DNA from: Collimonas sp. OK412
Lineage (GTDB): Bacteria > Pseudomonadota > Gammaproteobacteria > Burkholderiales > Burkholderiaceae_D
Assembly: GCF_900112135.1 (NCBI RefSeq)
Contig: NZ_FOLC01000027.1
Location: 1-58,572 of the forward strand
Length of the DNA stretch: 58,572 bases
Direction: 5' to 3'
In this document: positions 1 to 53,437 of the stretch, piece by piece
Layout of the letters: each line of letters starts with the position of its first letter
Position numbering within the stretch: position 1 is the stretch's first letter
Position numbers and translations under genes: made by a program
The notes under the pieces: model-generated
The model's input: the letters and a program-made list of their open reading frames with translations, nothing else
What the model was told of the DNA's origin: nothing
Databases searched by the model: none

Positions 1-289
1 TCGGATTGTTATAGTACGACCCCAGATAGAAAGTGGCCTGATAGGATTCGATTTTTCCGGCGCTATAGTTTTGTATCGGCACCAGATCGACGGCACTGTT
101 GAAATGTCCAATCAGATTACGCAGCATGATGGCGTAGGCAAATCCCAGCTTCTCATACTGATCAGGAGAAGGGGCATCGTACACAATCAATACTTTTATC
201 GGTGTGGTTAGGATTTGCGCTGTTGCTGGTGACGGGTTAAGCAAAAACAGCTCAGCGATCAGTACGAAAATAGCTGCAATCTTTTTCAT
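1..289 (-). CDS. DUF2334/YdaL-like secreted protein (5' part, cut by window edge)
   Basis: Reading leftwards from the ATG at 289, the first 96 codons are open to the window edge. They encode a Sec-type signal peptide (MKKIAAIFVLIAELFLL, ending near PATAQ) followed by KVLIVYD and a YAIMLRNLIGHF motif and then FYLGSYY. From memory these resemble the N-terminus of the DUF2334/COG5298 (YdaL) family, which is related to polysaccharide deacetylases and often sits in exopolysaccharide loci. The start overlaps the stop of the upstream small gene as ATGA (286-289), so the two are probably translationally coupled. The catalytic part lies outside the window, so the activity cannot be judged. Confidence 0.65.
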   Translation of the reverse strand, partial: MKKIAAIFVLIAELFLLNPSPATAQILTTPIKVLIVYDAPSPDQYEKLGFAYAIMLRNLIGHFNSAVDLVPIQNYSAGKIESYQATFYLGSYYNNP

Positions 290-546
290 GATTGGCCACC
301 TGTTTTTCCGGTTTGTTTACGCTCTTCATCATCGCTGGATTTATTCTTCTTGATGTCACCCTTATGATGATGACCGCGCTGGATGTCTTTTCCGGGCACC
401 TGGCCCGGCGTGACCACCGTGCCAAAAACTGGTTTCGGAGGAGGCGGGATGTCGACATTGCCCGCATTGGCGGAGGCAGCAAAACCAATTGCCGCGCCGA
501 TGCCCGCCATGAAAATGCGCAACGGCGTTTTACCTGTAGCTTTCAT
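286..546 (-). CDS. Small secreted proline/lysine-rich protein
   Basis: This encodes an 86-residue protein starting at the ATG at 546, which is preceded by a GGGAGA ribosome binding site; an in-frame ATG at 558 is less well placed. It has a signal peptide (core IFMAGIGAAIGFAASANA), a short IPPPPKP segment, and a very hydrophilic tail rich in Lys, His, Asp and Gln (HHHKGDIKKNK). I do not recognise a family. Its ATGA overlap with the YdaL-like gene suggests an accessory role in the same exported-polysaccharide process, but that is inference from position only. Confidence 0.6.
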   Translation of the reverse strand: MKATGKTPLRIFMAGIGAAIGFAASANAGNVDIPPPPKPVFGTVVTPGQVPGKDIQRGHHHKGDIKKNKSSDDEERKQTGKTGGQS

Positions 547-1139
547 GATTTCTCCCATTGAAGATGAGTACTTCAGCGCCAGCCTTCTCTTTAAGTCGGG
601 CTGGGATATCGCATCCGGAAACTAGCAATGCAAACTTTGAATGTGGGATGTTGCTGACCGTCTCGCATGACGTCGCTGTTTGATTTCGTGCGCGTCAAAA
701 CAGTGCGGAGAAAATGACGAGGAGGGGGGGCAATCGACCTGCATCCGAGAATTTTCTTGACAGCAATCATGATCCGTCTTTCTACGATGCAATCTCGGAA
801 TGAAATAGAAAACGCACCAATTCTTTCTCATGAGAATGGTCGTTTTCGTACCGCGGAATGTTAGCTTAAAGTATAGACGAAAGTGCCATTTTAACTAGGG
901 CTCGTTGCGGCATCTTGCGCAAAAAAATGTCGTCGAAATTATTGTTTTCCGCGGGGTAATAAACCCGCTTTTCGCTGAAATAAAATTTGGAGTATGCTCG
1001 TCATGACGACAACACCCGCGCACTAAATTTTCACAAATTGATGAAGGGCAAGCAGGCTTGTTGCTGCATAAAAATAGAATGGCAACTGGAAAATATACCG
1101 CGCCATTTTTAATCGGGAAGCAACTGAGCAATGCAATAT
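547..1139. other. Non-coding stretch, no convincing gene
   Basis: About 590 bases with no frame that combines a ribosome binding site with protein-like composition. It should hold the promoter of the minus-strand small gene/YdaL-like pair. A purine block (GGAGGGGGGG-like) lies near 720-730. Open frames here, including a 177-codon minus-strand frame from 1428 to 895, look accidental because it runs antisense to the gspG-like remnant. Confidence 0.4.
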
Positions 1140-1345: not shown

Positions 1346-1668
1346 ATCGCCGATGCACTATCGCGCTGCAAGCCGACCAATTCGAGTACCGACGGCGTTC
1401 TCGGTCCAGATGGAATGGCGATCTTCAAGCGTCTGCCGGCGGCCTACATTTGCCGCCGGATCTGGCCGTCGCCGCGGCCGATTTTTTCGACGCGCTTGCC
1501 TGGCGCCAAGGAGATCTCGGCAACCGACAATCCGGAACCGGTGGCGTTTCCCACCAGCTCCTTTGGGACAATGGCAAGGTCCGCATGTGCCGCACGGCAA
1601 GCGACTCCATGTCATTGATGATGCGCGAATCCAGCCATGGCACGATGCTGTGGACCAGGGAGCAATAG
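1330..1668 (+). pseudogene. Unassigned coding-like remnant between gspG-like and gspC-like genes
   Basis: The frame entered at 1330 (YKSRQYRR) stays open to a TAG at 1666-1668, only four bases before the gspC-like ATG. Residues such as LAVAAADFFDALAWRQGDLG and LLWDNGKVRMCRT look protein-like, but the frame has no good start and does not match a GspG C-terminus that I recognise. It may be a decayed gene joined to the gspG remnant. Nothing more can be said from sequence alone. Confidence 0.25.
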
Positions 1669-1672
1669 GAAC

Positions 1673-2332
1673 ATGGGCGGCTATTTCAAAAATATTATCG
1701 GCAAAAACATGCGCCGCCATAGCGCGCGCATGCCCGCGTTCGTCAGCCTGGTTTTGTTCATGCTGCTATGTGCCTGCGCCGCGTACTGGGGCATGACGTT
1801 GCTCAAGCCGCCGCTACGTGCGGTTGCACCGCCGCCTCAAACAGAGGCGCCACGGATTGATATTTCTCAAGCGGCCGGATTGTTTGGCGGCCATGAAAGC
1901 ACGGCTGCCAGCAACTACCGGCTGACGGGGGTGGTAGTAGCGCAAAATGCTGCGGAAAGCGTGGCTATCCTGAGCGCAGAGGGCCAGCCCGCGCAAGTAG
2001 TCCGGGTCGGCAAAGAAGTGCAGCCGGGAACCGGCATCAAGGAAGTGCATAAGACCTATGTGCTGCTGTCGGAAGGCGGCATTCTCAAACGGTTAATCCT
2101 GCCCGAGCACGCCGAGACCAAACTGGAGATGGCGTCAGCGGGTCCGCCTGCGGCGCCGGTGCCGCTGCCTGCGGCTCCACCTGAGGTGCCCGTAGCTCTA
2201 CCCACCGCGCCGGCAATCCCGCCTGCTGCGTCAGCGACCCCGCCCGCGGTGGCCACCCCATCTGCGGCGTCCGCGACCCCATCCACAGCGCCTGCGACAC
2301 GACCCGGCAGGCCGCATCATGCCAACCGTTAG
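1673..2332 (+). CDS. GspC-like type II secretion inner-membrane protein
   Basis: A 219-residue protein. The N-terminus is basic (NIIGKNMRRHSARMP), followed by one membrane segment (about residues 22-40, FVSLVLFMLLCACAAYWG), then a periplasmic homology region with AAGLFGG, YRLTGVVV, ESVAILS and the closing YVLLSEGGILKRLILP. This is the layout of the GspC/PulC HR domain, which links inner-membrane and outer-membrane parts of a type II secretion machine. The last 70 residues are a low-complexity Pro/Ala/Thr tail and there is no PDZ domain. The start at 1673 has GGGAG ten bases upstream; longer frames begin inside the previous remnant. No other gsp gene is intact nearby, so it is an orphan and may not function. 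Confidence 0.65.
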   Translation: MGGYFKNIIGKNMRRHSARMPAFVSLVLFMLLCACAAYWGMTLLKPPLRAVAPPPQTEAPRIDISQAAGLFGGHESTAASNYRLTGVVVAQNAAESVAILSAEGQPAQVVRVGKEVQPGTGIKEVHKTYVLLSEGGILKRLILPEHAETKLEMASAGPPAAPVPLPAAPPEVPVALPTAPAIPPAASATPPAVATPSAASATPSTAPATRPGRPHHANR

Positions 2333-2393
2333 CCGTTTTTATTGAATCAAAGCGCAGTATTTGCACAGGCATCGTTTGTTACAAAGAATTCTA

Positions 2394-2421
2394 TTGGCAA
2401 AAAAGACATTCATCCTATAAA
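2394..2421 (+). promoter_or_regulatory. Sigma70-type promoter for the wecB/nfrB/nfrA operon
   Basis: TTGGCA (2394-2399), a 16-base spacer and TATAAA (2416-2421) form a good housekeeping promoter about 95 bases before the epimerase ATG. The surrounding AT-rich leader repeats short GTTAC/GTAAC words near 2379, 2434 and 2454, which could be a regulator site. No other promoter-like pair is obvious until past the glycosidase lipoprotein, so the four genes are probably one transcript. Confidence 0.5.
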
Positions 2422-2515
2422 CTGTCACCAATGTAACAATGAATAACAAGTAGTTACAGTTAAAATAATTCGGGGCAATGACCGCATTGCATCTCCGAAT
2501 TCATAAGGGGGACTT

Positions 2516-3706
2516 ATGAAAATTCTCTCCATATTCGGCACCCGCCCGGAAGCCATCAAGATGGCGCCGGTGCTCAAGAGTCTCGCGTTGGAGGCAGAAA
2601 TCGAGTCCCTTGTCTGCACCACCGGGCAACACCGCAGCATGCTGCGGCAGGTACTGGACGTTTTCGAATTGCAGACCGATTTCGATCTGGACCTGATGGT
2701 GTCGAACCAGACATTGAATGGCCTAAGCTCCCGTCTTTTCACGGCACTCGATCCCTTGATAGAGCAAGTAAAGCCGGATCGCGTGCTGGTGCATGGGGAC
2801 ACGACGACGGCTATGGTGGGCGCCGTTGCTGCGTTCCATCGCGGGATCCCGGTTGCGCATGTCGAGGCCGGACTGCGTACCGGCAATTTGAAACAACCCT
2901 GGCCTGAAGAGATGAATCGCAGGGTGGTGGACGTCGTCAGCGACTTGCTGTTTGCGCCAACTGAAGGATCGAAACAAAATCTATGCAGGGAAAATCTGGC
3001 CGGCAAGGTCTATATCACTGGCAATACGGTGATCGATGCCTTGATGGTTTCCAGTACGCGGATTTCGCTTGACGACGCATTGCGCGCCGGGCTCGATGCG
3101 CAATTCCCCTTCCTCCAATCGGGCCGCAAGATTCTGCTGGTTACCGGCCACCGGAGGGAAAATTTCGGGCCAGGATTTCAGAATATCTGCACGGCGCTGG
3201 CCGAGCTTTCCGCGCGTTCCGACATTGATATCGTCTATCCGGTGCATCTTAATCCCAATGTGCAGCAACCGGTATCGACAGCCCTGTCTCATCTGCCCAA
3301 CGTACACCTGATTGCGCCGCTGGATTATCTCTCGTTCGTACGTTTGATGCAGCGCGCGCATGTCATTCTCACTGACTCCGGCGGCGTCCAGGAAGAAGCG
3401 CCGTCCCTGGGCAAGCCGGTGCTGGTGATGCGCGACGTCACCGAAAGGCCGGAGGCGGTTCTCGCAGGCACGGTCGAACTGGTGGGCACCGACGTGGAGC
3501 GCATCGTTACGGCTGTCCACAGGCTGTATGACGATGAAGCCGCATGGAGGTCGTTTGCCCAACACCACAATCCCTATGGAGACGGCTACGCCTCGCAGCG
3601 CATCGTGGCAGCCTTGCTCAACCGGACCGTATCGGAATTCGCCGCGCAGCCGGAAATATCGCATCAGGTAGCAGTAGATGGTCAAGAGGATCCCGTAGTC
3701 ATTTAG
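2516..3706 (+). CDS. wecB: UDP-N-acetylglucosamine 2-epimerase (non-hydrolysing)
   Basis: A 396-residue cytoplasmic enzyme of normal family length that interconverts UDP-GlcNAc and UDP-ManNAc. The diagnostic motifs are all present: GTRPEAIKMAPV at the N-terminus, HGDTTTAM, VEAGLRTGN with PWPEEMNRR, the HRREN loop, and TDSGGVQEEAPSLGKPVL followed by RDVTERPEA near the C-terminus. An AAGGGGG ribosome site precedes the ATG. It is the first gene of a likely operon with an NfrB-like glycosyltransferase and an NfrA-like exporter. In E. coli, WecB supplies UDP-ManNAc to the NfrB pathway, so its probable job here is precursor supply for a ManNAc-containing polymer. Confidence 0.93.
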   Translation: MKILSIFGTRPEAIKMAPVLKSLALEAEIESLVCTTGQHRSMLRQVLDVFELQTDFDLDLMVSNQTLNGLSSRLFTALDPLIEQVKPDRVLVHGDTTTAMVGAVAAFHRGIPVAHVEAGLRTGNLKQPWPEEMNRRVVDVVSDLLFAPTEGSKQNLCRENLAGKVYITGNTVIDALMVSSTRISLDDALRAGLDAQFPFLQSGRKILLVTGHRRENFGPGFQNICTALAELSARSDIDIVYPVHLNPNVQQPVSTALSHLPNVHLIAPLDYLSFVRLMQRAHVILTDSGGVQEEAPSLGKPVLVMRDVTERPEAVLAGTVELVGTDVERIVTAVHRLYDDEAAWRSFAQHHNPYGDGYASQRIVAALLNRTVSEFAAQPEISHQVAVDGQEDPVVI

Positions 3707-3768
3707 CGTCCATGTCCTGGGATTTCGTTCGATTGTAAAGTCTTCTTGCATTGATTTTTCAGGGCATC

Positions 3769-5892
3769 ATGACAACCAACTGGCTACATTTCCTTGCTGA
3801 TTATTATGCGCTGCTGGAACTTACCACCTGCGTTGTCGCGGTATTGTTTCTGGTGTCGGCGGCTGACGATCTGTTTGTCGATGCCTGGTACTGGATCCGC
3901 CAGGCTTACCGTCGGCTGACCAGAACGCGCACCTATCGGCCGGTCACGGAACGGCAACTGGAGCAACACGTCGAGCAGCCGCTTGCGATCATGGTGCCGG
4001 CGTGGCTAGAGTACGATGTGATCGCCCAGATGATCGAAAACATGGTGACGGTTCTCAACTACCGCAACTATGTGATTTTCGTTGGAACCTATGTCAATGA
4101 TGCGCACACCATTGCAGAGGTGGAGCGGATGCGTCGCCGCTACAAGCAATTGCATCGGGTCGAAGTGCCCCATGCGGGGCCTACCTGCAAGGCGGACTGC
4201 CTGAATTGGATCATCAACGCGATTTTCCTGTATGAGAAGAAGCGCGGTTATCAATTTGCCGGCGTCATTCTTCATGATAGCGAAGATGTGCTGCATTCTC
4301 TCGAACTGAAATTCTTCAATTACCTGTTGCCGCGCAAGGACATGATCCAGCTTCCTGTGATGTCGCTCGAACGCAAATGGTCCGAGCTGGTGGCAGGAAC
4401 CTATATGGATGAGTTCGCGGAGTCGCATGCCAAGGACATCGTTGTCAGGGAAAGCATCAGCGGCATGGTGCCTTCGGCTGGCGTCGGGACCTGTTTTTCT
4501 CGGCGCGCCCTGCAGGCGCTGGCCAGCGACAATCAAAACCAGCCTTTCAACACGGACACCCTGACTGAAGACTATGACATTGGCGCGCGTCTGGCGAGCA
4601 TAGGGATGACATCCATATTTGCCCGTTTTCCTGTCCATTTTTCGGTCAACCGCAAAACATGGTTCGGTTTCGGAAAGGAGCGCCAGGTCACGCTCAAGAT
4701 GCCGCTATGCGTGCGCGAGTATTTTCCCGACCACTTCAAGACGGCCTACCGGCAAAAAACGCGATGGGTATTGGGCATCAGCCTGCAAGGATGGGCGCAA
4801 ATCGGCTGGAGCGGCTCGCTTGCAAACAAATACCTGTTGTTTCGGGACCGCAAAGGCATCGTCACCGCCCTCGTCAGCGTTCCTGCTTATCTGCTGCTGT
4901 TGCAATTCCTGCCGTTCTGGATCGCCGACCATTTCGGATTTTGGAAACTCGCCTCCGGGTCAGTGCTGCAATCGCAAACATGGCTCCATTACGTGCTCTA
5001 CGCCAACCTGTCCGCACTGGCGTTGCGCGCCTCCCAACGCGCCTATTTTGTCAGTCGCCTGTACGGACCTGTACATGGGTTGCTTTCCGCGCCGCGCATG
5101 GTGGTTGCCAATTTTATTAACTTCGTGGCAGTGGCTCGGGCCTGGAAATTGTTCCTGGCGCACCTGCTGTTCGGGAAGCGCCTGGCATGGGACAAGACCA
5201 TGCACGACTTCCCCTCCGACGACCGCCTCATGCGCACGCGCCAACGCCTCGGTGAACTGCTGGTTTCATGGCAGGCAATCACCGAGGAGGACATGAAAAA
5301 GGGATTGCAGGAACATACGGAGATGCACCTTCCCCTTGGGCACATATTAGTGGCCCGCGGTTATATCGACGAAGAAACCCTGGCGGAAGCAATCGCCTTC
5401 CAGTCCGACCTGTCGCGCGCCGAAATCAGGATCGCGGCCTCCTTGCCCGCCCCGGTATCGCTTGATATGTGTGTAAGGCTGGGCGCGATGCCGATCGGGC
5501 AGGACGCCAATGGCAAGCCGATTGTCGCAGTCGGCAAGCCGCTTGCCGATGATGCGCTCAGGGAGCTTGCCTCGGCCTTTGGCACACAGCCCGTGCAACA
5601 TATTGCGCGGGACAGCGAAATAGTCTCCGGATTGCGCCTGGCCATGGCCGAAATGAATGCAAAATCCATCAAAAGAGAATTTAAAGGCGCATCGCTCCTT
5701 GGCGAACTACTGATCCATAATGGGAAAATCACGCGGGAAACGCTGGAGCAGGCGATGCAGCACTATATCTCTCCGCAGCATGGCCGCATTGGCGACTATC
5801 TCGTCGGTCGCGGGCTGGTGTCGCGCGAGGTTATCGAAGAAACTGTGCAGCAGCAAATGGCTCTGCTCAGACTAGCATTGGGAGTGGCATGA
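3769..5892 (+). CDS. nfrB: NfrB-like family 2 glycosyltransferase with tandem C-terminal MshEN modules
   Basis: A 707-residue inner-membrane protein. An N-terminal membrane segment is followed by a processive GT2 domain with the DxD-type HDSED at residues 169-173, TED at 266-268 and QKTRW at 329-333, then several membrane helices (about 360-470). The C-terminus carries two MshEN-like repeats: RLGELLV at 493-499 with LGHILVARG and LAEAIAFQ, and LLGELLI at 643-649 with IGDYLVGRG. MshEN modules bind c-di-GMP, and E. coli NfrB has the same layout. The expected role is c-di-GMP-controlled polymerisation of an aminosugar (UDP-ManNAc from WecB). I chose the ATG at 3769, with AGGG four bases upstream, over a TTG at 3751. 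The stop overlaps the next start (ATGA). Confidence 0.85.
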   Translation: MTTNWLHFLADYYALLELTTCVVAVLFLVSAADDLFVDAWYWIRQAYRRLTRTRTYRPVTERQLEQHVEQPLAIMVPAWLEYDVIAQMIENMVTVLNYRNYVIFVGTYVNDAHTIAEVERMRRRYKQLHRVEVPHAGPTCKADCLNWIINAIFLYEKKRGYQFAGVILHDSEDVLHSLELKFFNYLLPRKDMIQLPVMSLERKWSELVAGTYMDEFAESHAKDIVVRESISGMVPSAGVGTCFSRRALQALASDNQNQPFNTDTLTEDYDIGARLASIGMTSIFARFPVHFSVNRKTWFGFGKERQVTLKMPLCVREYFPDHFKTAYRQKTRWVLGISLQGWAQIGWSGSLANKYLLFRDRKGIVTALVSVPAYLLLLQFLPFWIADHFGFWKLASGSVLQSQTWLHYVLYANLSALALRASQRAYFVSRLYGPVHGLLSAPRMVVANFINFVAVARAWKLFLAHLLFGKRLAWDKTMHDFPSDDRLMRTRQRLGELLVSWQAITEEDMKKGLQEHTEMHLPLGHILVARGYIDEETLAEAIAFQSDLSRAEIRIAASLPAPVSLDMCVRLGAMPIGQDANGKPIVAVGKPLADDALRELASAFGTQPVQHIARDSEIVSGLRLAMAEMNAKSIKREFKGASLLGELLIHNGKITRETLEQAMQHYISPQHGRIGDYLVGRGLVSREVIEETVQQQMALLRLALGVA

Positions 5893-8114
5893 GAAAATAC
5901 CCGGTTTCGCTGCGTTTCCTGGGCAGCAGTCTTGCTGCCGTCACCTTGCTTGTAGCCACTGGCGCCAGCGCCGCGGAGCGGCCGCTTAGCGGCCAGGCAT
6001 ATCGGATTGCCGATGAGGCCTACAAGGCTTTTGCACAAGGGGAATATGATGTCGCGGCGGCAAAGGCGCGCGAGGCGATCCGCTTGCGGCCGGATGTCGC
6101 GCGTCTTCGCGACCTCCTGCAAAAGGCTGAGCTGGCGCGCCGCACGATGCAGGCGCAGCTTGCCTTCAACGCTTCCGCGGCTTCTTATCAGGCCCTGGAG
6201 CGCCGCGACTTCGCGCAGGCGGTAGAGCTGGCGCGCAAGGCGGTGGATTACCTGCCCGCCGTGCCGGCATTTCGCATCGCCCTGATCAATGCGCTGGTTG
6301 CGGCGGGAGAGCTTGAGCAAGCGGAGCAAGCTGCTTCCGACATGATCAAGCCAGACACGTCGTCGAGCGAAGCGCTGCTACTGCGCGGTGCAATACGCCA
6401 GCAACGCGGTGCTGTCGAATCTGCGCAAACAGACTTCGATCAAGCGCTGTCGAGTGCAGGCCCCGCTGCGCAGCGAGGCATCCGGCTGGTGGCTGCCGAC
6501 GCCGCGTTGGCCAATGGCGATCCACAGCGGGCGCTGCGTCTGCTCGAACCTCTGCAGGGCAGGGAGGACAAGGAAGCGGCAGCGCGGCGTGCGCTGGCGA
6601 CAATCATGCGTGGCCGGTCCGGCACAAGCCACGCCGCCCTGGCGTTCAGCTTCCCGCTTGTCAGCTGCACGTCCGGACCTGACTTGGTCTCGGCATGCGA
6701 CATCAATCCCGGTGCAACGTCTGCGGATCCGGGATTCATGCTTGCCGATCAAGCATATCGCGCTTTCGCCGACAAGAACTACGCTCTAGCGAGCAGCAAG
6801 GCCGGCGAAGCGACCCAATTGTCTCCTCGCGACCTTAGCTATCGCCGCTTGCAGGTGCAGGCGCTGAGCGCGCAGGGATCGCTGGCCGAGGCAGAACAGG
6901 CTGCAAATGCCGCCTTGGCCGACTTCGGAAACGATGCCGACATGCTGCTGGCGCGCGCCGATATACGAAAACGCCGCGGAAACCTGGATGCAGCCCAGGC
7001 TGATTATGCTGCCGTGCTGAGCGCGCCGGACAAAACCACCAGGACCGAGATCTCGGCATTGATCGGGCTCGGCCGGAAAGAAGACGCGCGCGCGCGCCTG
7101 GCAGCGGCGGCCAGCTCTCCAGAGAAAGGATCCGAACTTGAGCTAGCCTATCTTGCCCTCCAGGCGGGAGATAACCAGGATGCGCTCGAGCTGTTCAACC
7201 GTGCGGAGGCGCAGGGCACGCTCACCGATGCCGCTCGCCACGACGCAGCCTACACCGCCGCGCGCCAGGGTCGCAATGAACAGGCAATCGGATACCTCAA
7301 CCGGACTGTCGATGCGGCGCAAGCAGGCCGTCTTACGCTGGATGCGCAGCAGGTCTACGATGTGCGACGCGAATCCGCTGACCTGGAGCGCCGCTGGGGG
7401 ATGCGGGCAACACTGAGCGATAGAGGCGTTGCCGCGGCGGGCATCGGGGTGCCGCGTGGCGGCACGATCGACGGCAAGGACATCGCCGCGGAAGTATACT
7501 GGCGCCCGTTTGGATTGCAGAATGGGGCGCTGGTGGAGGTCTATGGCCGGGTCAATGAAACATTAAGCGGCGGATCGGGGGTCCCGACCGGATCTGCCAC
7601 AGCCCAGGCTGCGCTCGGCGCACGCGTGAAACCGTTCAGCGAGGTCAACGCCATACTGGCGCTCGAGCGCCTGGTGCCATTGGGGGACGCTACCAGCGGC
7701 GACTGGCTTGCCCGGGCTGGCTTCTCTTCGGATGCCGGACTGGATTTGCACGCGGAGCAAACCAGCTGGCTGAGTACGCACGTGTATGCTGAAGCAGGGC
7801 ATTACTTCCAGCATCCGCAAAGCTATGCCACTCTTGAAGGGCAATTGGGGCGTAGTTATCGGCTTGGCGAAAGCGGGTCGACCCTGGTCCTGTTTCCGCA
7901 CCTCGTGATGGGGGCGGACTATGATTCCGGCCTCATTGAGCACGACAAAAAAGCAATCGGAAGCGGCATCGGAACCAATATGCGTTACTGGTTCCGGCAG
8001 GATTACTATAACGCGCCGCGCTCCTATTTCGACCTGTCGCTGCAGTACCGCTGGCGCATCGCCGGCGACAAGCGGGCCGAAGGCTGGTTCATCCGGCTCA
8101 GCGCCTCGTATTGA
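5889..8114 (+). CDS. nfrA: NfrA-like TPR/outer-membrane beta-barrel polysaccharide export protein
   Basis: A 741-residue protein with a signal peptide (cleavage near TGASA-AERP). Residues 30-450 form Ala-rich helical TPR-like repeats (for example AYKAFAQGEYDVAAAKAREA and LADQAYRAFADKNYALASSK). From about 500 the sequence changes to alternating beta strands (WRPFGLQNGALVEVYGRVNE onward) and ends in LSASY, a typical aromatic last residue of an outer-membrane barrel. This matches the NfrA architecture (phage N4 adsorption protein A) and parallels PgaA/BcsC exporters; E. coli NfrA is longer, about 990 residues. It overlaps the glycosyltransferase by four bases, and is the likely outer-membrane exit channel for the polymer. 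Confidence 0.82.
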   Translation: MRKYPVSLRFLGSSLAAVTLLVATGASAAERPLSGQAYRIADEAYKAFAQGEYDVAAAKAREAIRLRPDVARLRDLLQKAELARRTMQAQLAFNASAASYQALERRDFAQAVELARKAVDYLPAVPAFRIALINALVAAGELEQAEQAASDMIKPDTSSSEALLLRGAIRQQRGAVESAQTDFDQALSSAGPAAQRGIRLVAADAALANGDPQRALRLLEPLQGREDKEAAARRALATIMRGRSGTSHAALAFSFPLVSCTSGPDLVSACDINPGATSADPGFMLADQAYRAFADKNYALASSKAGEATQLSPRDLSYRRLQVQALSAQGSLAEAEQAANAALADFGNDADMLLARADIRKRRGNLDAAQADYAAVLSAPDKTTRTEISALIGLGRKEDARARLAAAASSPEKGSELELAYLALQAGDNQDALELFNRAEAQGTLTDAARHDAAYTAARQGRNEQAIGYLNRTVDAAQAGRLTLDAQQVYDVRRESADLERRWGMRATLSDRGVAAAGIGVPRGGTIDGKDIAAEVYWRPFGLQNGALVEVYGRVNETLSGGSGVPTGSATAQAALGARVKPFSEVNAILALERLVPLGDATSGDWLARAGFSSDAGLDLHAEQTSWLSTHVYAEAGHYFQHPQSYATLEGQLGRSYRLGESGSTLVLFPHLVMGADYDSGLIEHDKKAIGSGIGTNMRYWFRQDYYNAPRSYFDLSLQYRWRIAGDKRAEGWFIRLSASY

Positions 8115-8154
8115 GCAAGCGATGCACCGGCGCGCCTGATCAAGGAAGTGAACC

Positions 8155-9081
8155 ATGAAGATGCACCTCGCCGTTTGCAATGTGAAGTCGAGGGCGAATT
8201 TGCGCAGGTTCAATCGGCGCCGCATATTAGGCATGCTTGTGGTGGCAACGCTCTGCGGTTGCCAGCAGGACCCGCTGCAAGCCAGGCTCAAGCAATCTCC
8301 GCCGACGCGGGTGCGAGGAATCGTGTGGCAGCTCGATGACCAGACGCTGCATCCTATGGGAAACTGGGAAAGGCTAGGGGCGCGTGAGCTGCTCATCCAA
8401 TGGACGGCCGTGGATGGCATCAACTACCTGCCAGGCGCCGAGGGCCGCGCTGCCGCGAGATTTCCTGATTGGCAGCGGATTGCAGCTGAACCTTGGGCGA
8501 ACAAAGTGATTGTCGGATTGGCAGGCAGGTTCGACGAAACGGCGGCCCGCGCAAATGTTGCCGCGCTAATTGAAGAGTCGCGCAAGCTTGCCGCGTTGCC
8601 GACGCCGCTGCATGTGGCGGGTTGGTTCTTTCCACTGGAGGTTGATTCGAGCTGGTCCGATGCAGCTCGCCTTGGCCCGCTGCTGGCAGCTTTGCCGCGG
8701 CCACTGTGGATCAGCGTATATGACAGCGCCAATGTCGGTGCCGATACGTTATCGCAATGGCTTGCTTCCTGGCTGCCGCCAGACGTGGGTATTTTCTTTC
8801 AGGATGGCGTCGGTATCCACGCGCGCGAGGCAAGCGTGGCCCGGCATTATGCAGACGTGCTGGCTGCTCGTTTTGGAAAACAGCGGGTACGTATCATCGC
8901 CGAAGCGTTTCGACCTCGCCAGGGAGGAGGATTCCGCCCGGCCACAGCCGCAGAACTCAAGCCGCAACTTGCCGTCTATGACGGTTTTTCCGTTTACTTG
9001 TTCGATGGCCCGCATTACCTGAACCGCGACCTGGTGAATGAGCTGGCCGGTCCTGAAAATGCTGCAGAAAATGGGGGCTGA
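8155..9081 (+). CDS. Lipoprotein with glycosidase-like TIM-barrel domain (DUF4434-like)
   Basis: A 308-residue protein with a lipobox ending TLCGC, so the lipidated Cys is about residue 36 after a long basic leader. The mature part alternates strand and helix (VRGIVWQLDD, ARELLIQWTAVDG, NKVIVGLAGRFDE, HVAGWFFPLEVD, PLWISVYDS, DVGIFFQDGVG, YDGFSVYLFDGPHYL), resembling DUF4434-type TIM barrels found beside exopolysaccharide genes. This assignment is from fold pattern and memory. AAGGAAG precedes the ATG. It sits 40 bases after nfrA, so it is probably in the operon and may trim or release the polymer in the periplasm or outer membrane. Its stop codon lies inside the left arm of a long hairpin. 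Confidence 0.6.
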   Translation: MKMHLAVCNVKSRANLRRFNRRRILGMLVVATLCGCQQDPLQARLKQSPPTRVRGIVWQLDDQTLHPMGNWERLGARELLIQWTAVDGINYLPGAEGRAAARFPDWQRIAAEPWANKVIVGLAGRFDETAARANVAALIEESRKLAALPTPLHVAGWFFPLEVDSSWSDAARLGPLLAALPRPLWISVYDSANVGADTLSQWLASWLPPDVGIFFQDGVGIHAREASVARHYADVLAARFGKQRVRIIAEAFRPRQGGGFRPATAAELKPQLAVYDGFSVYLFDGPHYLNRDLVNELAGPENAAENGG

Positions 9082-9127
9082 GGCTCAGTCGAATACCGCT
9101 AGGGGCATTCGACTGAGCCTCAGCCCC
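9074..9127 (+). terminator. Perfect 21-bp hairpin overlapping the lipoprotein stop codon
   Basis: Bases 9074-9094 and 9107-9127 are perfectly complementary (left arm begins GGGGCTGAGGCTCAG), with a 12-base loop. The TGA stop at 9079-9081 is part of the left arm. There is no following T-run in either direction, so it is not a classic intrinsic terminator. It may stabilise the 3' end of the operon mRNA or block convergent transcription from the glycosidase gene on the other strand. Confidence 0.6.
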
Positions 9128-9265
9128 TTGCCGCAGATGCTATGAAGGACTACCCAAGTCCGTGCCCTCAGCCAGGAATGGAAGTTGTGGAAGCCATTAT
9201 TGGTCAGGAGCGCTGAAACGAACGCGCCTGAGATAGTCCTTCAAGGCAGCAGGAGCGGATTGTTC

Positions 9266-10183
9266 TTAACTGCCCGACAATACGTTATTGAATGTCGACC
9301 ACAGCGGTTGTGTGGACGGCACCAAGTCTTCTTTGCCATACCACCAGAAATAGCCGCCGATATAGTTTTTCACAGGTGGCTTCAAGGTGTAGTAGCGCGT
9401 CAGGTAGGCTGCCTTGTTGGTAGTGGTGGTGCCGGTTTCGCCAAATCCGACCTTGGAGTTCGGAAACATGGCCGACAGCTTCGTAAACACGGCATTCCAG
9501 TCAGGAACCAAGCCGTTGCAGTCCTCTTCGTAGTAGCTGACCAGCACGTAGTCAAGCCCGGTTTTCATGCGCGCCGGAATATTCGCATTCGCCCAGGTGA
9601 ACATCTCGTTCGCTGGATTGGACCAGCAGTCCTGGTTGTAGTACAGCGTCAGAGCGGCAGTCTTGCCTTGCCCTTTGGCCAGATCGTAAGCACCGGTCAT
9701 CTTGGCGACTACGTCGGCGTTTTTGCCTAGCCACTCACCATTGATTTCGTTACCGATTTCCCAGATGTTCACCACGTCGCCAAGGGCTGCCATGTATTCG
9801 CTTGTGCGGTTCAGGTATTGCTGGACCGTGTATTGATCCATCGCCGAGGAGTCAAGGATCTCACCCATCACATAACTGACTTTGTTGATCGCTACAGCCG
9901 CGTTGCGGTAGCCGGATGCAGGCTGCCATTCGTCGAACACAATGCGAGTGGTCGGCTTTTTCGACAGTTGGGACAGGGCGGCGGTGGTGGCAGTCAATCC
10001 CGATATGTCGTCAATGGTTATGCCGTACATTTGCTGGTTGGCGTAACTGACTGCAGTAGTAGTGGTAGTCGTTGTCGTCGGCGCTGGCGCCGGGGTCCGC
10101 GATCTCCATGCGTTCGCCTCGCCATGTAAAACCATACCGAGCATGACGCCTAAAATGATGGTGACAGATTTCAATTTATACAT
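9266..10183 (-). CDS. Secreted clan GH-A-like glycoside hydrolase
   Basis: A 305-residue protein with a signal peptide ending near GEANA, then a Pro/Thr linker with a run of eight Thr, then a TIM-barrel-like catalytic domain. VNIWEIGNEING puts a candidate acid/base Glu at residue 146 (the N-E pair typical of clan GH-A) and KVGFGETG puts a candidate nucleophile Glu at 249; GGYFWWYG is a typical barrel end. The exact family (GH5/GH39-like) is uncertain. It converges on the nfr operon, with a short gap. A secreted glycosidase next to an exopolysaccharide operon suggests cutting of that polymer, which is inference. Confidence 0.7.
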   Translation of the reverse strand: MYKLKSVTIILGVMLGMVLHGEANAWRSRTPAPAPTTTTTTTTAVSYANQQMYGITIDDISGLTATTAALSQLSKKPTTRIVFDEWQPASGYRNAAVAINKVSYVMGEILDSSAMDQYTVQQYLNRTSEYMAALGDVVNIWEIGNEINGEWLGKNADVVAKMTGAYDLAKGQGKTAALTLYYNQDCWSNPANEMFTWANANIPARMKTGLDYVLVSYYEEDCNGLVPDWNAVFTKLSAMFPNSKVGFGETGTTTTNKAAYLTRYYTLKPPVKNYIGGYFWWYGKEDLVPSTQPLWSTFNNVLSGS

Positions 10184-47603: not shown

Positions 47604-49403
47604 TTATTTGGTTTTGTCGATGTCGTAGTACATCCATTCGGTAGGCATCACCGGATGCTTCTTGTAGCCGATCACCCTTGGCTGCGCAATCATGTTGCGG
47701 TAACGCGCATAACCGATGCGCGATGGCGAATAGACTTCCAGGATGCGCGTCATCTTGTGGTACAGCAGGTCGCGTTCGGGACCGTCCGGCAGCTTTTGCG
47801 AGGCGGCATAGAGTGTATCGAATTCAGGGATCTTGGTGCAGCCATTGTTGTTCTGGCCGATATTCGGTCCATAGAACAGCTGCATGAAATTGTCGCCGTC
47901 AGGATAGTCTGCGATCCATGGCGCAGTGCGGGTTTGCAGCTGGCACTCTTTTTCTGCCTTGAGCAAGTCAGGAAAGGTTTTCAGGTCGCCGACCATGCGG
48001 ATGTGGATGGTGTCATAGGTTTTTTTCCACATTTCCGATTGCTGCTGGCCGTTCGAATCGGCGCGGGCGGAATAGCGTACCGTCAGCGGTTTGCCGTCCG
48101 GCAGGGTGCGGTAGCCGTCGCTGCCGATCTTGTAGCCGAACTTGTCGAGCAGGGCATTGGCGACTTCCGGTTCGTACTGGATACTGCTCTTGTACCCAGG
48201 GTCGTAGCCGACCACGCCTGGCGGGATCGGGTATTCCAGCGGGATTGCTTCGTCGTTCCAGACCACCTTGATTTCTTCGCGCACGTTGTGCGCCATGGCG
48301 ATGGCGCGTCGGAGCGCGATCTTTTCCTTGCTCAGGCCGCCCAGCACGGGGTCCTTCATGTTCCAGTAGAAGTAGCTGATTTCAGGGTCGACGATACGCG
48401 ACAGCTGAACACCGCGCTTGACGAATTCCGGTTTCAGCTTGCCGCCGGCCATGACTTGCGGCGCCAGCGGGCCTTGCAATTCGGTGATGTCGACTTCGTC
48501 TCCCTCGAATGCCAGCAGGCGCGACTGGTCTTCCACCATCACGCTGATTTCAACGCGGCCGATCTGCGGCATGCGCTTGCCTTTCATCTTGGCCACGATA
48601 GCGGCATCGCCAGGATCGGCGCTAGGCTGGAAATCCCATGTGTAACCGCGGAAGTCCGGGTTGGCGGTCAAGACCATGCGCGAGCCGCGTATCCATTTGC
48701 TCAGGATGTAAGGGCCGGTGCCGACCGGATGCCCCATCACGGTGCCTTGGGCGTCGCGGTATTTTTCGATCACTTCACGCGCCACCGCGCTGGTCGGCTG
48801 GTGCGCCAGGATCATGCCAAGGTTGAAATCGGGCTGTTTCAAGTGGATGCGCAGGGTATAGCGATCCAGCAGTTCGAAACCGGGAACATTGGCGTCGTAG
48901 TCGAAATGGCCGGTTTTCTTGGCTGTTGCGGCAATTTCGTCGAGGCCGACTACTTTGCCTTCCAGCAGCCAGGTTTGCGGCGAAGCCAGCTGCGGATCGA
49001 ACAGGCGTTTCCACGAATAGACGAAATCGGCCATGGTCAGTTCGCGCTTCTTGCCGTTGAATACCGGATCATCGGCAAAGTAGATCCCTTTTTTCAGGCG
49101 GATCGTATAAGTCATGCCGTCGGCGCTGACTTCCGGCAGGGCTGCCGCTGCCGAAGGCATCAGCTTGGCCGGCCGCGCCAGGTATTCGTAGGCGAACAGC
49201 GTTTCAAATACCGACTGGTTCACCAGTTGCGAATACAGGTCGCGCGTCACGGCCGGGTCGAAGCCGGTTTCCGGCGCCACGAAGACGAAGCGCAATACCT
49301 TGTCGGGATCAGCCGGTGAAGTTGGCGCGGCCACCGATACCTTCATCGGCAGGGCGCACGCCAAACACGCAACCAATATCCCGCGTAACCAAAGCGAGTT
49401 CAT
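47604..49403 (-). CDS. Family 5 solute-binding protein (peptide), copy 1
   Basis: A 599-residue periplasmic protein with a signal peptide (ILVACLACALPMKVSVA). SBP_bac_5 features are clear: YEYLARPAKLMP, YTIRLKKGIYFADDPVF, HPVGTGPYILSKWIRGSRMV, KMKGKRMPQIGRVEISVM, AIAMAHNVREEIKVVW and NFMQLFYGPNIGQNNNGC. It captures oligopeptides for the permeases. GGAG precedes the start. It is clearly paralogous to the two SBP genes upstream (same length, same landmarks) but diverged in several blocks. Confidence 0.92.
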   Translation of the reverse strand: MNSLWLRGILVACLACALPMKVSVAAPTSPADPDKVLRFVFVAPETGFDPAVTRDLYSQLVNQSVFETLFAYEYLARPAKLMPSAAAALPEVSADGMTYTIRLKKGIYFADDPVFNGKKRELTMADFVYSWKRLFDPQLASPQTWLLEGKVVGLDEIAATAKKTGHFDYDANVPGFELLDRYTLRIHLKQPDFNLGMILAHQPTSAVAREVIEKYRDAQGTVMGHPVGTGPYILSKWIRGSRMVLTANPDFRGYTWDFQPSADPGDAAIVAKMKGKRMPQIGRVEISVMVEDQSRLLAFEGDEVDITELQGPLAPQVMAGGKLKPEFVKRGVQLSRIVDPEISYFYWNMKDPVLGGLSKEKIALRRAIAMAHNVREEIKVVWNDEAIPLEYPIPPGVVGYDPGYKSSIQYEPEVANALLDKFGYKIGSDGYRTLPDGKPLTVRYSARADSNGQQQSEMWKKTYDTIHIRMVGDLKTFPDLLKAEKECQLQTRTAPWIADYPDGDNFMQLFYGPNIGQNNNGCTKIPEFDTLYAASQKLPDGPERDLLYHKMTRILEVYSPSRIGYARYRNMIAQPRVIGYKKHPVMPTEWMYYDIDKTK

Positions 49404-49445
49404 ACCATGTGTCTCCTTCTAAATATCTCTAGCTAAATAAATTGG

Positions 49446-49474
49446 AGCTGCGGCAGGCAATGTTTGCCGCAGCT
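49446..49474 (-). terminator. Hairpin between SBP copies 1 and 2
   Basis: AGCTGCGGCA and TGCCGCAGCT form a perfect 10-bp stem around a 9-base loop, 30 bases past the copy 2 stop on the minus strand. It probably reduces read-through into copy 1 and the permeases, so the SBPs would be made in excess of the membrane parts. Confidence 0.55.
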
Positions 49475-49503
49475 GGATTGTCTGTTACTGAATAGGTGAT
49501 GAA

Positions 49504-51300
49504 TTAGTGTTTTTCGACATCGATGTATGGCCACTCGGCGTGCAGGATAGGGTGCTTCTTGAAACCCTTGACCCATGGCCGCACCAGCCAGCTGCGGATC
49601 CTGGTCGTGTTCAGGACCCAGGCTGTGTCAGCCTCGACCTGCCGGTTCATCTGCTGGTATATCTGGTTGCGCTCGGGGCCGAGCGGCAGCGCCATCGCTT
49701 TGGCGTAAAGCGAATCGAAAACGGGGGACTGGTAGCAGCCGTGGTTGCCATGGCCGGAATTCGGCCCGTACAGTAACTGCAGGAAATTCTCTGCTTCGGG
49801 ATAGTCGGCCATCCAGGCGGCGCCCCACATCGTCAGTTCGCAGGAAGTGGCGGCCTTCAGGTTGTCGGCGAAATTGCTGACGATGAATTTGGTCTTGATG
49901 CCGACCAGGTCCAGTCCGCGCTTCCAGAGCTCGGACATTTCCTGGCCGATCCCGCCCTGGTTGGAGGTGTACTTGAGCAGCAGCGGCGAGCCGTCGGGCA
50001 TGGTCCGATAGCCGTCGGCGCCGCGCTTGTAGCCGAAGTGATCGAGCAGTTTGTTGGCCAGTGCGGGATCGTAATCGATGCTGGTCCGGTACGCCGGATC
50101 GTAGCCGCCGACTCCGGGCGCAATGATCATTTCCAGTTTCATGGCCTGGCCATTGCGCAATAAAGAGGCTTCTTCCTTGTTGTTATATGCCATTGCTATG
50201 GCGCGCCGCAATGCAATTTTTTCGTTGCTGTAACCGCCTATGACGGGGTCTTTCATGTTCAGGACGGTGTAGGTAATTCCGGTATCGACCACGCGTTGCA
50301 GCTGGATGCCTTGCTCAGCGTAGGCCGGCTTGAGTTTGTCGCCGTCCAGCACGCTTAGCGCTGCAGTATCGGGCATCTTGTCGAAATCGATCTGCTTGCC
50401 CTGGAACGCCAGCCAGCGCGACTGGTTTTCTTCAATGATGCTGATCTCGACACGTCCGATCTGCGGCATTTTCTTGCCTTGCATATCCTTGATTACCTGT
50501 TTGTCGACGGCGTCGGTGGAAGGCTTGAAGTCCCAGGTGTACCCGCGGTATTCAGGGTTGGCGACCAGGACGATTTTACTGCGCGGGACATACTGTTCCA
50601 GCATATAAGGGCCGGTTCCCACCGGATGCTGGCCGGTTTGCTGCCCATAGGCATCGACGGCCTCGCGCGCCATGGCGCCGAAAGCGCTGTAAGCGACCAC
50701 GTTCAGGAAGTTGTAGTCCTTGGCGTTCAGGACGACTTTGAGGGTGTAGCGGTCAGGCGCCTGCAAGCCGGCTATCGGCGTTTCGTAGTTGAAGTGGCCG
50801 GTTTTCTGGGCTTGCGCTGCCAGCTCGTCAAGGCCGGCGATCTTGCCGGCCAGGAAATTGGCGGACGGCGAGCGGTTTTTCGGGTCAAGGACGCGCTTGA
50901 AAGTGTAAATGTAGTCTTCGGCGGTCAATTCCCGCCGTACTCCTTTGAAAGCCGGGTCGGGAGCGAAATAAATGCCCTTCTTGATGTGGAAGGTGTAGGT
51001 CTTGCCATCCTCGCTGATTTCCGGCATCGCTTCCACCGTCTTGGTCACCAGCTTGGCCGGGCGGGCCAGGTAATCGTAGGTAACCAGGGGTTCAAAGATG
51101 ACTTCGCTGACCCAGCCCGAATAGAAATTCTGGGTGCGGGCCATGTCGAAGCCATCGTCTGCGGCTTCGAATGCGGTGCGTATCACTTTCGCGGGATCCG
51201 CCGGATTGGCTTCGGCACTGCCGGCGAAGGTAGCCAGCGCCAGCACGGGCGCCAGGAATAGATGCTTGAACTTGACGAAATTCGACGTTTTACGGATCAT
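49504..51300 (-). CDS. Family 5 solute-binding protein (peptide), copy 2
   Basis: A 598-residue periplasmic protein with a signal peptide (HLFLAPVLALATFAGSAEA). Landmarks match the other copies: PLVTYDYLARPAKLVTK, KGIYFAPDPAFKGVRRELTA, TGPYMLEQYVPRSKIVLVAN, QGKKMPQIGRVEISI, NKLLDHFGYKRGADGYRTMP and NFLQLLYGPNSGHGNHGC. It is closer to copy 3 than to copy 1. The start is the first Met after a weak upstream site. Separate ligands for each copy are likely but unproven. Confidence 0.92.
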   Translation of the reverse strand: MIRKTSNFVKFKHLFLAPVLALATFAGSAEANPADPAKVIRTAFEAADDGFDMARTQNFYSGWVSEVIFEPLVTYDYLARPAKLVTKTVEAMPEISEDGKTYTFHIKKGIYFAPDPAFKGVRRELTAEDYIYTFKRVLDPKNRSPSANFLAGKIAGLDELAAQAQKTGHFNYETPIAGLQAPDRYTLKVVLNAKDYNFLNVVAYSAFGAMAREAVDAYGQQTGQHPVGTGPYMLEQYVPRSKIVLVANPEYRGYTWDFKPSTDAVDKQVIKDMQGKKMPQIGRVEISIIEENQSRWLAFQGKQIDFDKMPDTAALSVLDGDKLKPAYAEQGIQLQRVVDTGITYTVLNMKDPVIGGYSNEKIALRRAIAMAYNNKEEASLLRNGQAMKLEMIIAPGVGGYDPAYRTSIDYDPALANKLLDHFGYKRGADGYRTMPDGSPLLLKYTSNQGGIGQEMSELWKRGLDLVGIKTKFIVSNFADNLKAATSCELTMWGAAWMADYPEAENFLQLLYGPNSGHGNHGCYQSPVFDSLYAKAMALPLGPERNQIYQQMNRQVEADTAWVLNTTRIRSWLVRPWVKGFKKHPILHAEWPYIDVEKH

Positions 51301-51637
51301 TTTTTTTATGCCTTTTGAGCAAGTGGTTATTTTCTATCTGCGATCAAGATTGCTTATCCTGATCACAAAACAGCGTCATCTCCGATGACATCGCATTCTC
51401 CGCCGGTAAGCGGATAGGCGATCAATAGTTTCTGTTTCCCACTAAAAATCCGTTAAAGCCGGAGTGCGTCGCCTGTGGCGCTGGGGTGGAATTCATTCAT
51501 TTCACTGGTCTCCTTCGTTGTCGTTGATTTTTATGCCTGACGGTCTGCGCGCGTTCGAGGTCAAGGCGGCATAGTACAGAATCCGGCGTAAAAAGATAGA
51601 TAATCAAATCGATGTTATTGCAAAAATTACAGCTTCT
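51301..51637 (-). other. Intergenic leader of SBP copy 2, with a 15-codon ORF
   Basis: 337 bases without a normal gene. On the minus strand AAGGAG (51510-51515) lies nine bases before ATG (51498-51500), opening a 15-residue frame MNEFHPSATGDALRL that stops at 51453. This could be a leader peptide or the remnant of a gene. The rest is leader or promoter of SBP copy 2. Confidence 0.35.
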
Positions 51638-53437
51638 CTAGTGTTTTTCAACATCCAGGTACTGCCAGTCAGCCTGCAGGATGGGATGGCGCTTGAAGCC
51701 CTTGATCCAGGGCCTGATCAGCCAGTTGCGCGAGCGCGACACGGTAATCACCCAGGCAGTGTCAGCTTCCATCTGGCGGCTCATGGCTATATAGAGCTGG
51801 TTGCGTTCCGGGCCGGGCGGCAAAACCTTGGCTTTGTCGTAAAGCGCGTCAAAGGCCGGCGAGCTATAGCAGCCGTTGTTGCCTTGCCCCGCATTGGGGC
51901 CGTACAGCAATTGCATGAAATTGTCGCCTTCCGGGTAATCCGCGGACCAGGAGCCGTTCCACATCATCAGCTTGCACTCGGTCGCCGCTCTCAGGTTGTC
52001 GGCGTAATTGCTGACCTTGAAATCGACCCGAATGCCGATCTTGTCCAGCCCGCGCTTCCAGATTTCCGAGAAAACCACGTTTTTCGCACTGGCCTCGGTC
52101 GCCATCTTGATAACCAGCGGGCCACCGTCGGGCAGGGTGCGATAACCGTCGGCCCCGCGCTTGTAGCCGAAGTGGTCAAGCAATTTGTTTGCCAGCGCCG
52201 GATCGTAGGCGATGCTGCTGCGATAGTTGGGGTCGTGGCCCACCACGCCTTCCGGAATCACCATTTCCGCCTTTACTGCAAGCCCCATGCGCACCTGGGA
52301 AATTTCATCCTGGACGTTGTAAGACATGGCGATAGCGCGCCGCAAGGCATTCTTTTCCAGGCTGTCGCCGCCGAGCAAGGGGTCTCTGAAATTCATGATG
52401 ACGTAGGCTAGCCCAGGCTCGATCACGGTATTCATGCGAATGCCTTCAGCCTTGAACGACGGCTTCAGTTCCGTGCCGTCGAGTACAGTCGGCGCTGCGG
52501 CTTGGGGCAGGAAGTCGAAGTCTATCTGCTTGCCCTGGAATGCCAGCCAGCGCGACTGCTCTTCCTCGATGATGCTGACCTCGACTCGGCCGACCTGCGG
52601 CATTTTCTTGCCCTTCATGTCGTGCACCAGCTGCTCGTCCCAGGCGCTGCCGGTCGATTTGAAATCCCAGGTATAGCCGCGGTATTCAGGATTGGCGACC
52701 AGCACGATCTTGCTGCGCGGTACGTATTGCTCCAGCATATAGGCGCCGGTGCCGACCGGATGGGCGCCGCTCTGTTCGCCATAAGCGTCGATCACTTCGC
52801 GTGCCTGGGCGCCCAAGGCGTTGAATCCCATGATGTAAAGGAAGTTGTAATCGGGGGCGGTGAGCGTGATCTTCAGGGTGTAGCGATCAGGCGTCTGGAG
52901 GCCGGCTACCGGTGCATCGTAATCGAAACGACCGGATTTTTTCGCTTTTGCTACCGCTTCGTCCATGCCGGCGATTTTTCCTTCCAGTACGTTGGCCGAT
53001 GGCGAACGGTTTTTGGGATCGAGAAATCGCTTGAAGGAATAAGCATAGTCCTGGGCGGTCAGCTCGCGACGCACTCCCTTGAAGGCAGGATCGGGGGCGA
53101 AATAAATGCCCTTCCTGATATGGAACACGTAGCTTTTTCCGCCATCGCTCACCTCGGGCATGGCTTCCGAGGCTTGCGGTACCAGCTTGGCGGGGCGTGC
53201 CAGATAGTCATAAGTCAGCAAGCGCTCAAAAATTGCCTCGGCAATCCAGTTTGAATAAGCATTGTAGGTGCGGACCAAGTCGAAGCCATCGTCGGGGGCT
53301 TCGAGAGCCACGCGCACCACTTTGGACGGGTCCGCTGGATTATTGCCCGCTTGCACTGAAGTCGCGGCGCCTGCAACGCCAAAAACGAGCAATATTGGTG
53401 CAATGCACGATCGATTGAATTGTTTAAAGTTCCACAT
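51638..53437 (-). CDS. Family 5 solute-binding protein (peptide), copy 3
   Basis: A 599-residue periplasmic protein with a signal peptide (CIAPILLVFGVAGAATSVQA). It shares YDYLARPAKLVPQ, GIYFAPDPAFKGVRRELTA, TGAYMLEQYVPRSKIVLVAN, KGKKMPQVGRVEVSIIEEEQ, LLDHFGYKRGADGYRTLPDG and NFMQLLYGPNAGQGNNGCYS with copy 2. It is the first gene of the minus-strand cluster and is divergent from a TonB-dependent receptor, so both may share one regulatory region. Confidence 0.92.
   Translation of the reverse strand: MWNFKQFNRSCIAPILLVFGVAGAATSVQAGNNPADPSKVVRVALEAPDDGFDLVRTYNAYSNWIAEAIFERLLTYDYLARPAKLVPQASEAMPEVSDGGKSYVFHIRKGIYFAPDPAFKGVRRELTAQDYAYSFKRFLDPKNRSPSANVLEGKIAGMDEAVAKAKKSGRFDYDAPVAGLQTPDRYTLKITLTAPDYNFLYIMGFNALGAQAREVIDAYGEQSGAHPVGTGAYMLEQYVPRSKIVLVANPEYRGYTWDFKSTGSAWDEQLVHDMKGKKMPQVGRVEVSIIEEEQSRWLAFQGKQIDFDFLPQAAAPTVLDGTELKPSFKAEGIRMNTVIEPGLAYVIMNFRDPLLGGDSLEKNALRRAIAMSYNVQDEISQVRMGLAVKAEMVIPEGVVGHDPNYRSSIAYDPALANKLLDHFGYKRGADGYRTLPDGGPLVIKMATEASAKNVVFSEIWKRGLDKIGIRVDFKVSNYADNLRAATECKLMMWNGSWSADYPEGDNFMQLLYGPNAGQGNNGCYSSPAFDALYDKAKVLPPGPERNQLYIAMSRQMEADTAWVITVSRSRNWLIRPWIKGFKRHPILQADWQYLDVEKH

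Follow-up and report, generated by a model that had tools for sequence, protein, structure and literature searches.

The window analysed here, a stretch of 58,572 bases, is the entire contig C39 of a 5.46-Mb Collimonas-like genome and carries a wecB-nfrB-nfrA-ybcH operon (2516-9081) of the kind known from Escherichia coli as Nfr or NGR (N4 glycan receptor), i.e. a synthase-dependent exopolysaccharide (EPS) locus. The last gene of the operon, ybcH, encodes a core partner of Nfr loci, and its product is likely a periplasmic glycoside hydrolase (GH) that would trim the nascent chain, not a bare scaffold. Two further genes near the operon, ydaL and a gene for a secreted glycosidase-like protein, form a rare accessory set. 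The best reading of the locus is a variant of the known Nfr system with predicted trimming and modification of the polymer. We consider it fairly probable, from gene content and modelled structure, that all these parts act together, with YbcH as trimming hydrolase and with YdaL and the glycosidase as accessory proteins modifying or cutting the same polymer.

The operon and its core partner YbcH

The first gene, wecB (2516-3706, forward strand), encodes a uridine diphosphate N-acetylglucosamine (UDP-GlcNAc) 2-epimerase (TIGR00236, 460.6 bits, cut-off 210, E=3.8e-138), and its linkage to nfr predicts, at the gene level, a supply of UDP-N-acetylmannosamine (UDP-ManNAc). It is followed by nfrB (3769-5892, forward strand) for a family 2 glycosyltransferase (GT2) synthase with an MshEN domain for cyclic di-GMP (c-di-GMP), supported by NF012033 (1064.7 bits, cut-off 537), PF05157 for the MshEN domain (36.4 bits, cut-off 23.1) and NF053729 for the c-di-GMP motif (86.7 bits, cut-off 38). 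NfrB contains the processive GT2 motifs HDSEDV (from residue 169), TED (266) and QKTRW (329) as well as a tandem MshEN motif (LGELL at 494, LGHIL at 523). It is 95% identical to its counterpart in Collimonas sp. OK607, 93% to that in Collimonas sp. OK242 and 39%, near full length, to E. coli NfrB; against the E. coli-type model NF008411 it scores 641.7, below the cut-off of 1170. The third gene, nfrA (5889-8114, forward strand), combines tetratricopeptide repeat (TPR) matches with a C-terminal outer-membrane domain (NfrA_C, PF13283, 171.2 bits, cut-off 25, E=2e-50), and its likeness to E. coli NfrA lies chiefly in the C-terminal part. The first-pass annotation, made from the sequence alone, had proposed an NGR-type locus with the order wecB, nfrB, nfrA, and family profiles above cut-off bear this out for all three genes. 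It had also described overlapping stops and starts, which holds for nfrB/nfrA (ATGA); wecB and nfrB are separated by 62 nucleotides (from the ATG at 3769), and nfrA and ybcH by 40.

The gene directly after nfrA (8155-9081, forward strand) encodes a lipoprotein-like protein that shares 26% identity with E. coli YbcH in the best-matching segment, and a seven-row alignment including both proteins and the YbcH of genome G068 contains 23 invariant positions. In E. coli MG1655 ybcH also stands directly after nfrA, and the operon has been published as nfrBA-ybcH (PMC8669469, in its available excerpts). The lipoprotein had been taken for a hydrolase-like addition that the E. coli locus lacks; this is wrong because it is the YbcH counterpart, which adjoins nfrA in MG1655 too, and we rejected the lipoprotein as a locus-specific extra. 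The "two extra hydrolases" of the first-pass annotation therefore come down to a core protein, YbcH, and a rare accessory glycosidase, with YdaL to be counted among the accessory proteins.

The best 80 of the 408 NfrB loci found are all at least 57% identical and therefore sample the window's own NfrB subfamily. Among these 80, nfrA is present at 79, wecB at 76 and a YbcH relative at 75, and the order wecB-nfrB-nfrA-ybcH on one strand is seen at 71. Three of the five loci that miss YbcH have only 166 to 1,930 bases beyond nfrB, and a fourth (L041) ends within what appears by eye to be an acetylation-type cluster of AlgF, AlgX and MBOAT genes; the only real absence among the five is in Microvirga (L043). 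Of 148 genomes nine contain NfrA_C, and in each of these a YbcH relative immediately follows nfrA; five of the relatives were detected with the Collimonas query, the other four solely with E. coli YbcH (E values from 1.8e-64 to 6.2e-29). The Collimonas query also gave one weak match in G089, a genome without NfrA_C.

Two curated profiles weigh against the assignment: the window protein scores 23.5 with PF14488 (cut-off 30) and 38.5 with NF007404 (cut-off 344). The G068 protein passes the former (170.5) and is below the cut-off of the latter (89.1). We use the name "YbcH-like" because the window protein lies below these cut-offs of the curated DUF4434 family; by its position after nfrA and by invariant residues in common with E. 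coli YbcH it belongs with the YbcH proteins.

An alignment of 27 rows (A3), comprising the window YbcH and 26 relatives at 47-61% identity, was used for modelling with AlphaFold2. It was drawn from 36 YbcH representatives, nine of which were left out: L073, part of which was masked; L003, L108 and L113; and the incomplete sequences L053, L032, L034, L035 and L040. The resulting model (predicted local distance difference test, pLDDT, 87.7) is a triosephosphate isomerase (TIM) barrel, its eight strands following the barrel order. In this predicted model strand 4 (154-163) carries E162 and strand 7 (245-250) carries E250 at its end, so that carboxylates close both strands as in 4/7 TIM barrels. 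These candidate catalytic glutamates, together with D164 and D217, are invariant in all 27 rows. The same four residues are invariant in an 11-row set with E. coli, G068, G028, G081, G092 and G118, where their E. coli equivalents are E144, D146, D211 and E245 of the 296-residue MG1655 protein; this set and a further alignment (A4) are chosen spreads of sequences, not all rows. Across the 36 looser representatives E162 is kept in 92% and E250 in 86%; the remaining rows mostly have gaps, with a single different residue at each position. Such invariance at these two strand ends is usual for active 4/7 barrels.

A rare accessory set of YdaL and a secreted glycosidase-like protein

The glycosidase-like gene is convergent to the operon (9266-10183, reverse strand), and its product contains the candidate catalytic residues Glu146, in GNE, and Glu249, in FGE, just as the first reading of the sequence had it. 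Both residues are among 137 invariant positions in seven sequences (the window protein and six relatives) from three genera. The YdaL-like protein that had been suspected at the left edge is there as well: positions 2-289 (reverse strand) hold the first 96 codons of ydaL, cut by the contig end and 92% identical to residues 1-96 of the YdaL of Collimonas OK607. The window fragment stops before the DUF2334 domain, which lies past the contig end; the full-length OK607 protein matches this domain (PF10096) with E=6.5e-42 and the G068 protein with E=2.3e-42. By eye, ED[VI] and HGYTH are present in all seven aligned YdaL sequences, and we take these Asp and His motifs to be deacetylase-like and metal-binding. 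The full-length YdaL relatives thus combine a DUF2334 domain, similar to carbohydrate esterase family 4 (CE4), with the matching motifs.

Upstream of ydaL, and overlapping it by ATGA, is a gene for a secreted-looking small protein of 90 residues (286-558, reverse strand), an open reading frame (ORF) which had been missed in the first pass. Relatives precede ydaL in L025, L106 and L026 and, weakly, in L108 (E=1.3e-4); a similar short ORF is seen, by eye only, before ydaL in L127.

The glycosidase and YdaL are distributed together. Both are found in the same five of the 148 genomes, the window's own included, and all five belong to the nine with NfrA_C; among 392 family genomes there are seven with the glycosidase and six with YdaL, the six all being included in the seven. 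Hypergeometric probabilities, in which relatedness is ignored, are 2.3e-7 for the glycosidase with NfrA_C and 1.8e-9 for the glycosidase with YdaL in the 148 genomes, and 1.4e-12 for the latter pair in the 392. A tree of the 15 Collimonas genomes, built from folE alone, has the four carriers dispersed: it needs four label changes, the same as with shuffled labels, and three of them are forced by well-supported branches. The accessory set has therefore moved or been lost repeatedly, and as a linked island it could simply have travelled jointly. The open-licence literature, as far as its retrievable excerpts go, contains no report of nfr loci that carry YdaL and the glycosidase as a set.

Among the carriers, OK607 and G006 have the same arrangement as the window, and in L026 ydaL and the small gene accompany nfr. 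In G068 one strand reads nfrB-small-ydaL-nfrA-ybcH, with wecB on the other strand and a shorter NfrB frame (568 codons). G737, from a third genus, carries ydaL-wecB-nfrB-nfrA-AlgF-AlgX-MBOAT-ybcH-glycosidase on one strand; between wecB and nfrB there is an additional 2.2-kb frame that matches no Pfam family. The combination noted in the window, hydrolase-like neighbours included, thus recurs as a single cluster, and this is the strongest argument for counting the glycosidase with nfr.

Alternatively, the glycosidase may be a nutritional or fungal-wall enzyme that stands beside nfr by chance and has spread with it on one island, an explanation we regard as possible though somewhat doubtful. Collimonas is known for feeding on fungi. 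Several observations weigh on this side or against a role in polymer processing. The best 80 NfrB loci include one with the glycosidase and two with YdaL, all from Collimonas, and on the former count we rejected the glycosidase as a general part of nfr loci; G533 has it with neither NfrB nor YdaL. The glycosidase is on a different contig from nfr in G068 and also in G007, where it adjoins the gene for a GspC-like protein on one contig and the segment corresponding to window positions 2345-9260 is missing between the two. Its AlphaFold2 model is poor (pLDDT 59.4) and matches mixed TIM barrels. As to the clan GH-A pattern, GNE146 and FGE249 are invariant, but the pLDDT is low and no glycosidase Pfam family scores above cut-off. 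DUF2334, for its part, is found in 7 of 14 control genomes, including Bacillus subtilis and archaea, and the domain alone is therefore no marker of EPS loci. What speaks against a chance neighbour is G737, of another genus, whose co-directional nfr cluster ends with the glycosidase gene, and the presence of NfrB in six of the seven carriers when no more than 9 of 148 genomes contain NfrA_C. In G007 and G068, too, the glycosidase is co-present with nfr and YdaL, though unlinked. The expected co-occurrence of hydrolases with nfr thus holds for YbcH and is mixed for the glycosidase (one of 80 loci, six of seven carrier genomes).

On the preferred reading of the accessory set, co-distribution and the one complete cluster suggest that this secreted, clan-A-like enzyme would cut it outside the cell and that the deacetylase-like YdaL would deacetylate or otherwise modify it.

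Searches for the source of the glycosidase covered a phylum-wide sample (present in one of 398 genomes, the window's own), plasmids (one Fusobacterium record), phages (no match) and viral contigs (no confirmed relative, in a search able to find close relatives only); an origin of the gene in phages, viruses or plasmids gained no support from them. The plasmid record is a 40% identical relative in Fusobacterium vincentii (L114:9890-10797), split over two frames, in which YdaL was not found. Searches of PDB sequences with two glycosidase versions and with YdaL returned nothing useful. The relatives in G737 (L128:9342-10871) and G533 (L129:9424-11061) have a C-terminal region matching 3keto-disac_hyd (PF06439), above cut-off only in G533, and the glycosidase gene of G014 (L006) has a TAA inside the matched stretch, near the 3' end.

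Contigs C38 and C23 of the window's genome also match PF10096. Both contigs end in copies of ydaL whose last 253 bases are identical to window positions 1-253, and over 1,713 columns the two contig ends share 94.6% identity. It seems that ydaL is duplicated in the genome and broke the assembly at the window's left edge.

Comparison with known polymer systems

The closest known system is nfrBA-ybcH of E. coli, which likewise has a GT2-MshEN synthase, a TPR/outer-membrane NfrA and YbcH directly after nfrA. It differs in that wecB lies inside the operon in the window, in the length of NfrA (741 residues in the window, 990 in E. coli) and in the nearby YdaL, small protein and secreted glycosidase, none of which is annotated in the MG1655 stretch viewed. 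According to the excerpts of PMC8669469, wecB is needed in the E. coli NGR system.

Beyond Nfr, pgaABCD for poly-N-acetylglucosamine (PNAG) is similar: there, too, a TPR outer-membrane porin is accompanied by an envelope protein that contains a hydrolase TIM barrel. PgaB is a fusion of deacetylase and hydrolase, whereas the deacetylase-like YdaL and the barrels of the window are separate proteins. This likeness extends to the fold of YbcH itself. The top solved folds for the YbcH model in Foldseek are BT_0435 (PDB 4h41, E=1.6e-6), the hydrolase domains of PgaB (GH153; 7.4e-5 to 5.7e-4) and then a GH18-like protein. BT_0435 is a Bacteroides protein that carries its functional name, alpha-L-fucosidase, just as a putative label; it is matched in sequence, too, by the YbcH of G068 (E=0.0023, including GWYIS-E). 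Sequence searches of the PDB with the window YbcH and the A3 profile gave nothing useful, no PDB sequence matching the YbcH profile, and a viral fold library returned a single match at E below 0.001, without name.

Could YbcH instead be a catalytically dead carbohydrate-binding scaffold, which guides the chain from NfrB to NfrA and whose glutamates bind sugar without cleaving it? We think this unlikely, yet it deserves serious consideration, as some of our own results count against an active hydrolase. The template modelling (TM) scores with BT_0435 and PgaB are modest, 0.43-0.54 when normalised to the query and 0.38-0.52 when normalised to the target, and from rank 9 down the matches include barrels that are not glycosidases. 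An Asn before the strand-4 acid/base is a hallmark of clan GH-A, and in YbcH the candidate acid/base is without it (the stretch reads PLE in the window protein and SAE in that of E. coli). Moreover, the excerpts of PMC8669469 describe E. coli YbcH as a putative scaffold that is dispensable for infection and plating of phage N4. Against a scaffold, the glutamates closing strands 4 and 7 are the same without exception in Collimonas, in E. coli and at four further divergent nfr loci. A precedent also speaks for cleavage: the C-terminal domain of PgaB was first named a binding domain and was later shown to cut PNAG (PMC5933820, as excerpted). On the preferred reading of YbcH as a hydrolase, suggested by the fold and the invariant carboxylates, the protein would be held in the envelope and trim the nascent chain, a part equal to that of the PgaB C-terminal domain in PNAG secretion. 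A hydrolase role for YbcH is not reported in the open-licence literature, as far as the excerpts of it extend.

The pssA-E/pssZ system of Listeria and the ydaJKLMN system of Bacillus resemble the window in combining c-di-GMP-controlled EPS with a YdaL-type protein and a hydrolase, although both are Gram-positive systems; Listeria PssB is presumably a DUF2334 protein. The excerpts of PMC6307706 give the Listeria polymer as beta-1,4-ManNAc with galactose, PssB as deacetylase and PssZ as hydrolase, which makes it a precedent for the preferred reading of the window. For B. subtilis, those of PMC13274460 describe ydaLMN as essential for EPS and the ydaJKLMN polymer as containing alpha-Gal and/or N-acetylgalactosamine (GalNAc), not ManNAc, which counts against the preferred reading.

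That the locus is a plain orthologue of nfrBA-ybcH with a linked wecB, whose neighbours add no function, appears improbable: wecB linkage and acetylation variants of nfr loci are already published (PMC8669469, same excerpts) and the plain gene order prevails in the best-80 sample, but in G068 ydaL is embedded in the nfr operon, and in G737 it immediately precedes wecB.

Of wider interest is YbcH, which E. coli also has and which, as judged from sequence and model, is probably an enzyme that processes the polymer. NGR is a phage receptor, and with YbcH as a hydrolase Nfr would be one more system with its own polymer-cleaving envelope enzyme, after those for PNAG, Pel, cellulose, alginate and Psl. 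YdaL and the glycosidase would serve as probes of the linkage and acetylation of the polymer. Only tentatively do we suggest that YbcH may be a new GH family processing the NGR (poly-ManNAc-type) chain within the envelope in most Nfr bacteria including E. coli, and that the set of YdaL, small protein and secreted glycosidase may yield a partly deacetylated, self-releasable polymer, possibly shielding or removing the phage receptor.

Other features of the window and of related loci

A perfect inverted repeat of 21 bp with a 12-base loop (9074-9127) overlaps the ybcH stop and is a possible hairpin. Upstream of the operon and outside the core system, positions 1637-2332 (forward strand) encode the GspC-like periplasmic protein (T2SSC domain, PF11356, E=1.9e-10), whose homologue neighbours the glycosidase gene in G007; it has a Pro/Ala-rich tail. 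Two plasmids carry nfr loci with further genes: that of Paraburkholderia dioscoreae (L003) has a gene annotated "cellulose synthase" together with AlgF/MBOAT genes, and that of Nitratireductor (L004) a gene annotated BcsB. Far from the operon, three consecutive ORFs of 598-599 residues (47607-53437, reverse strand) are exported-looking and by eye resemble paralogous solute-binding proteins.

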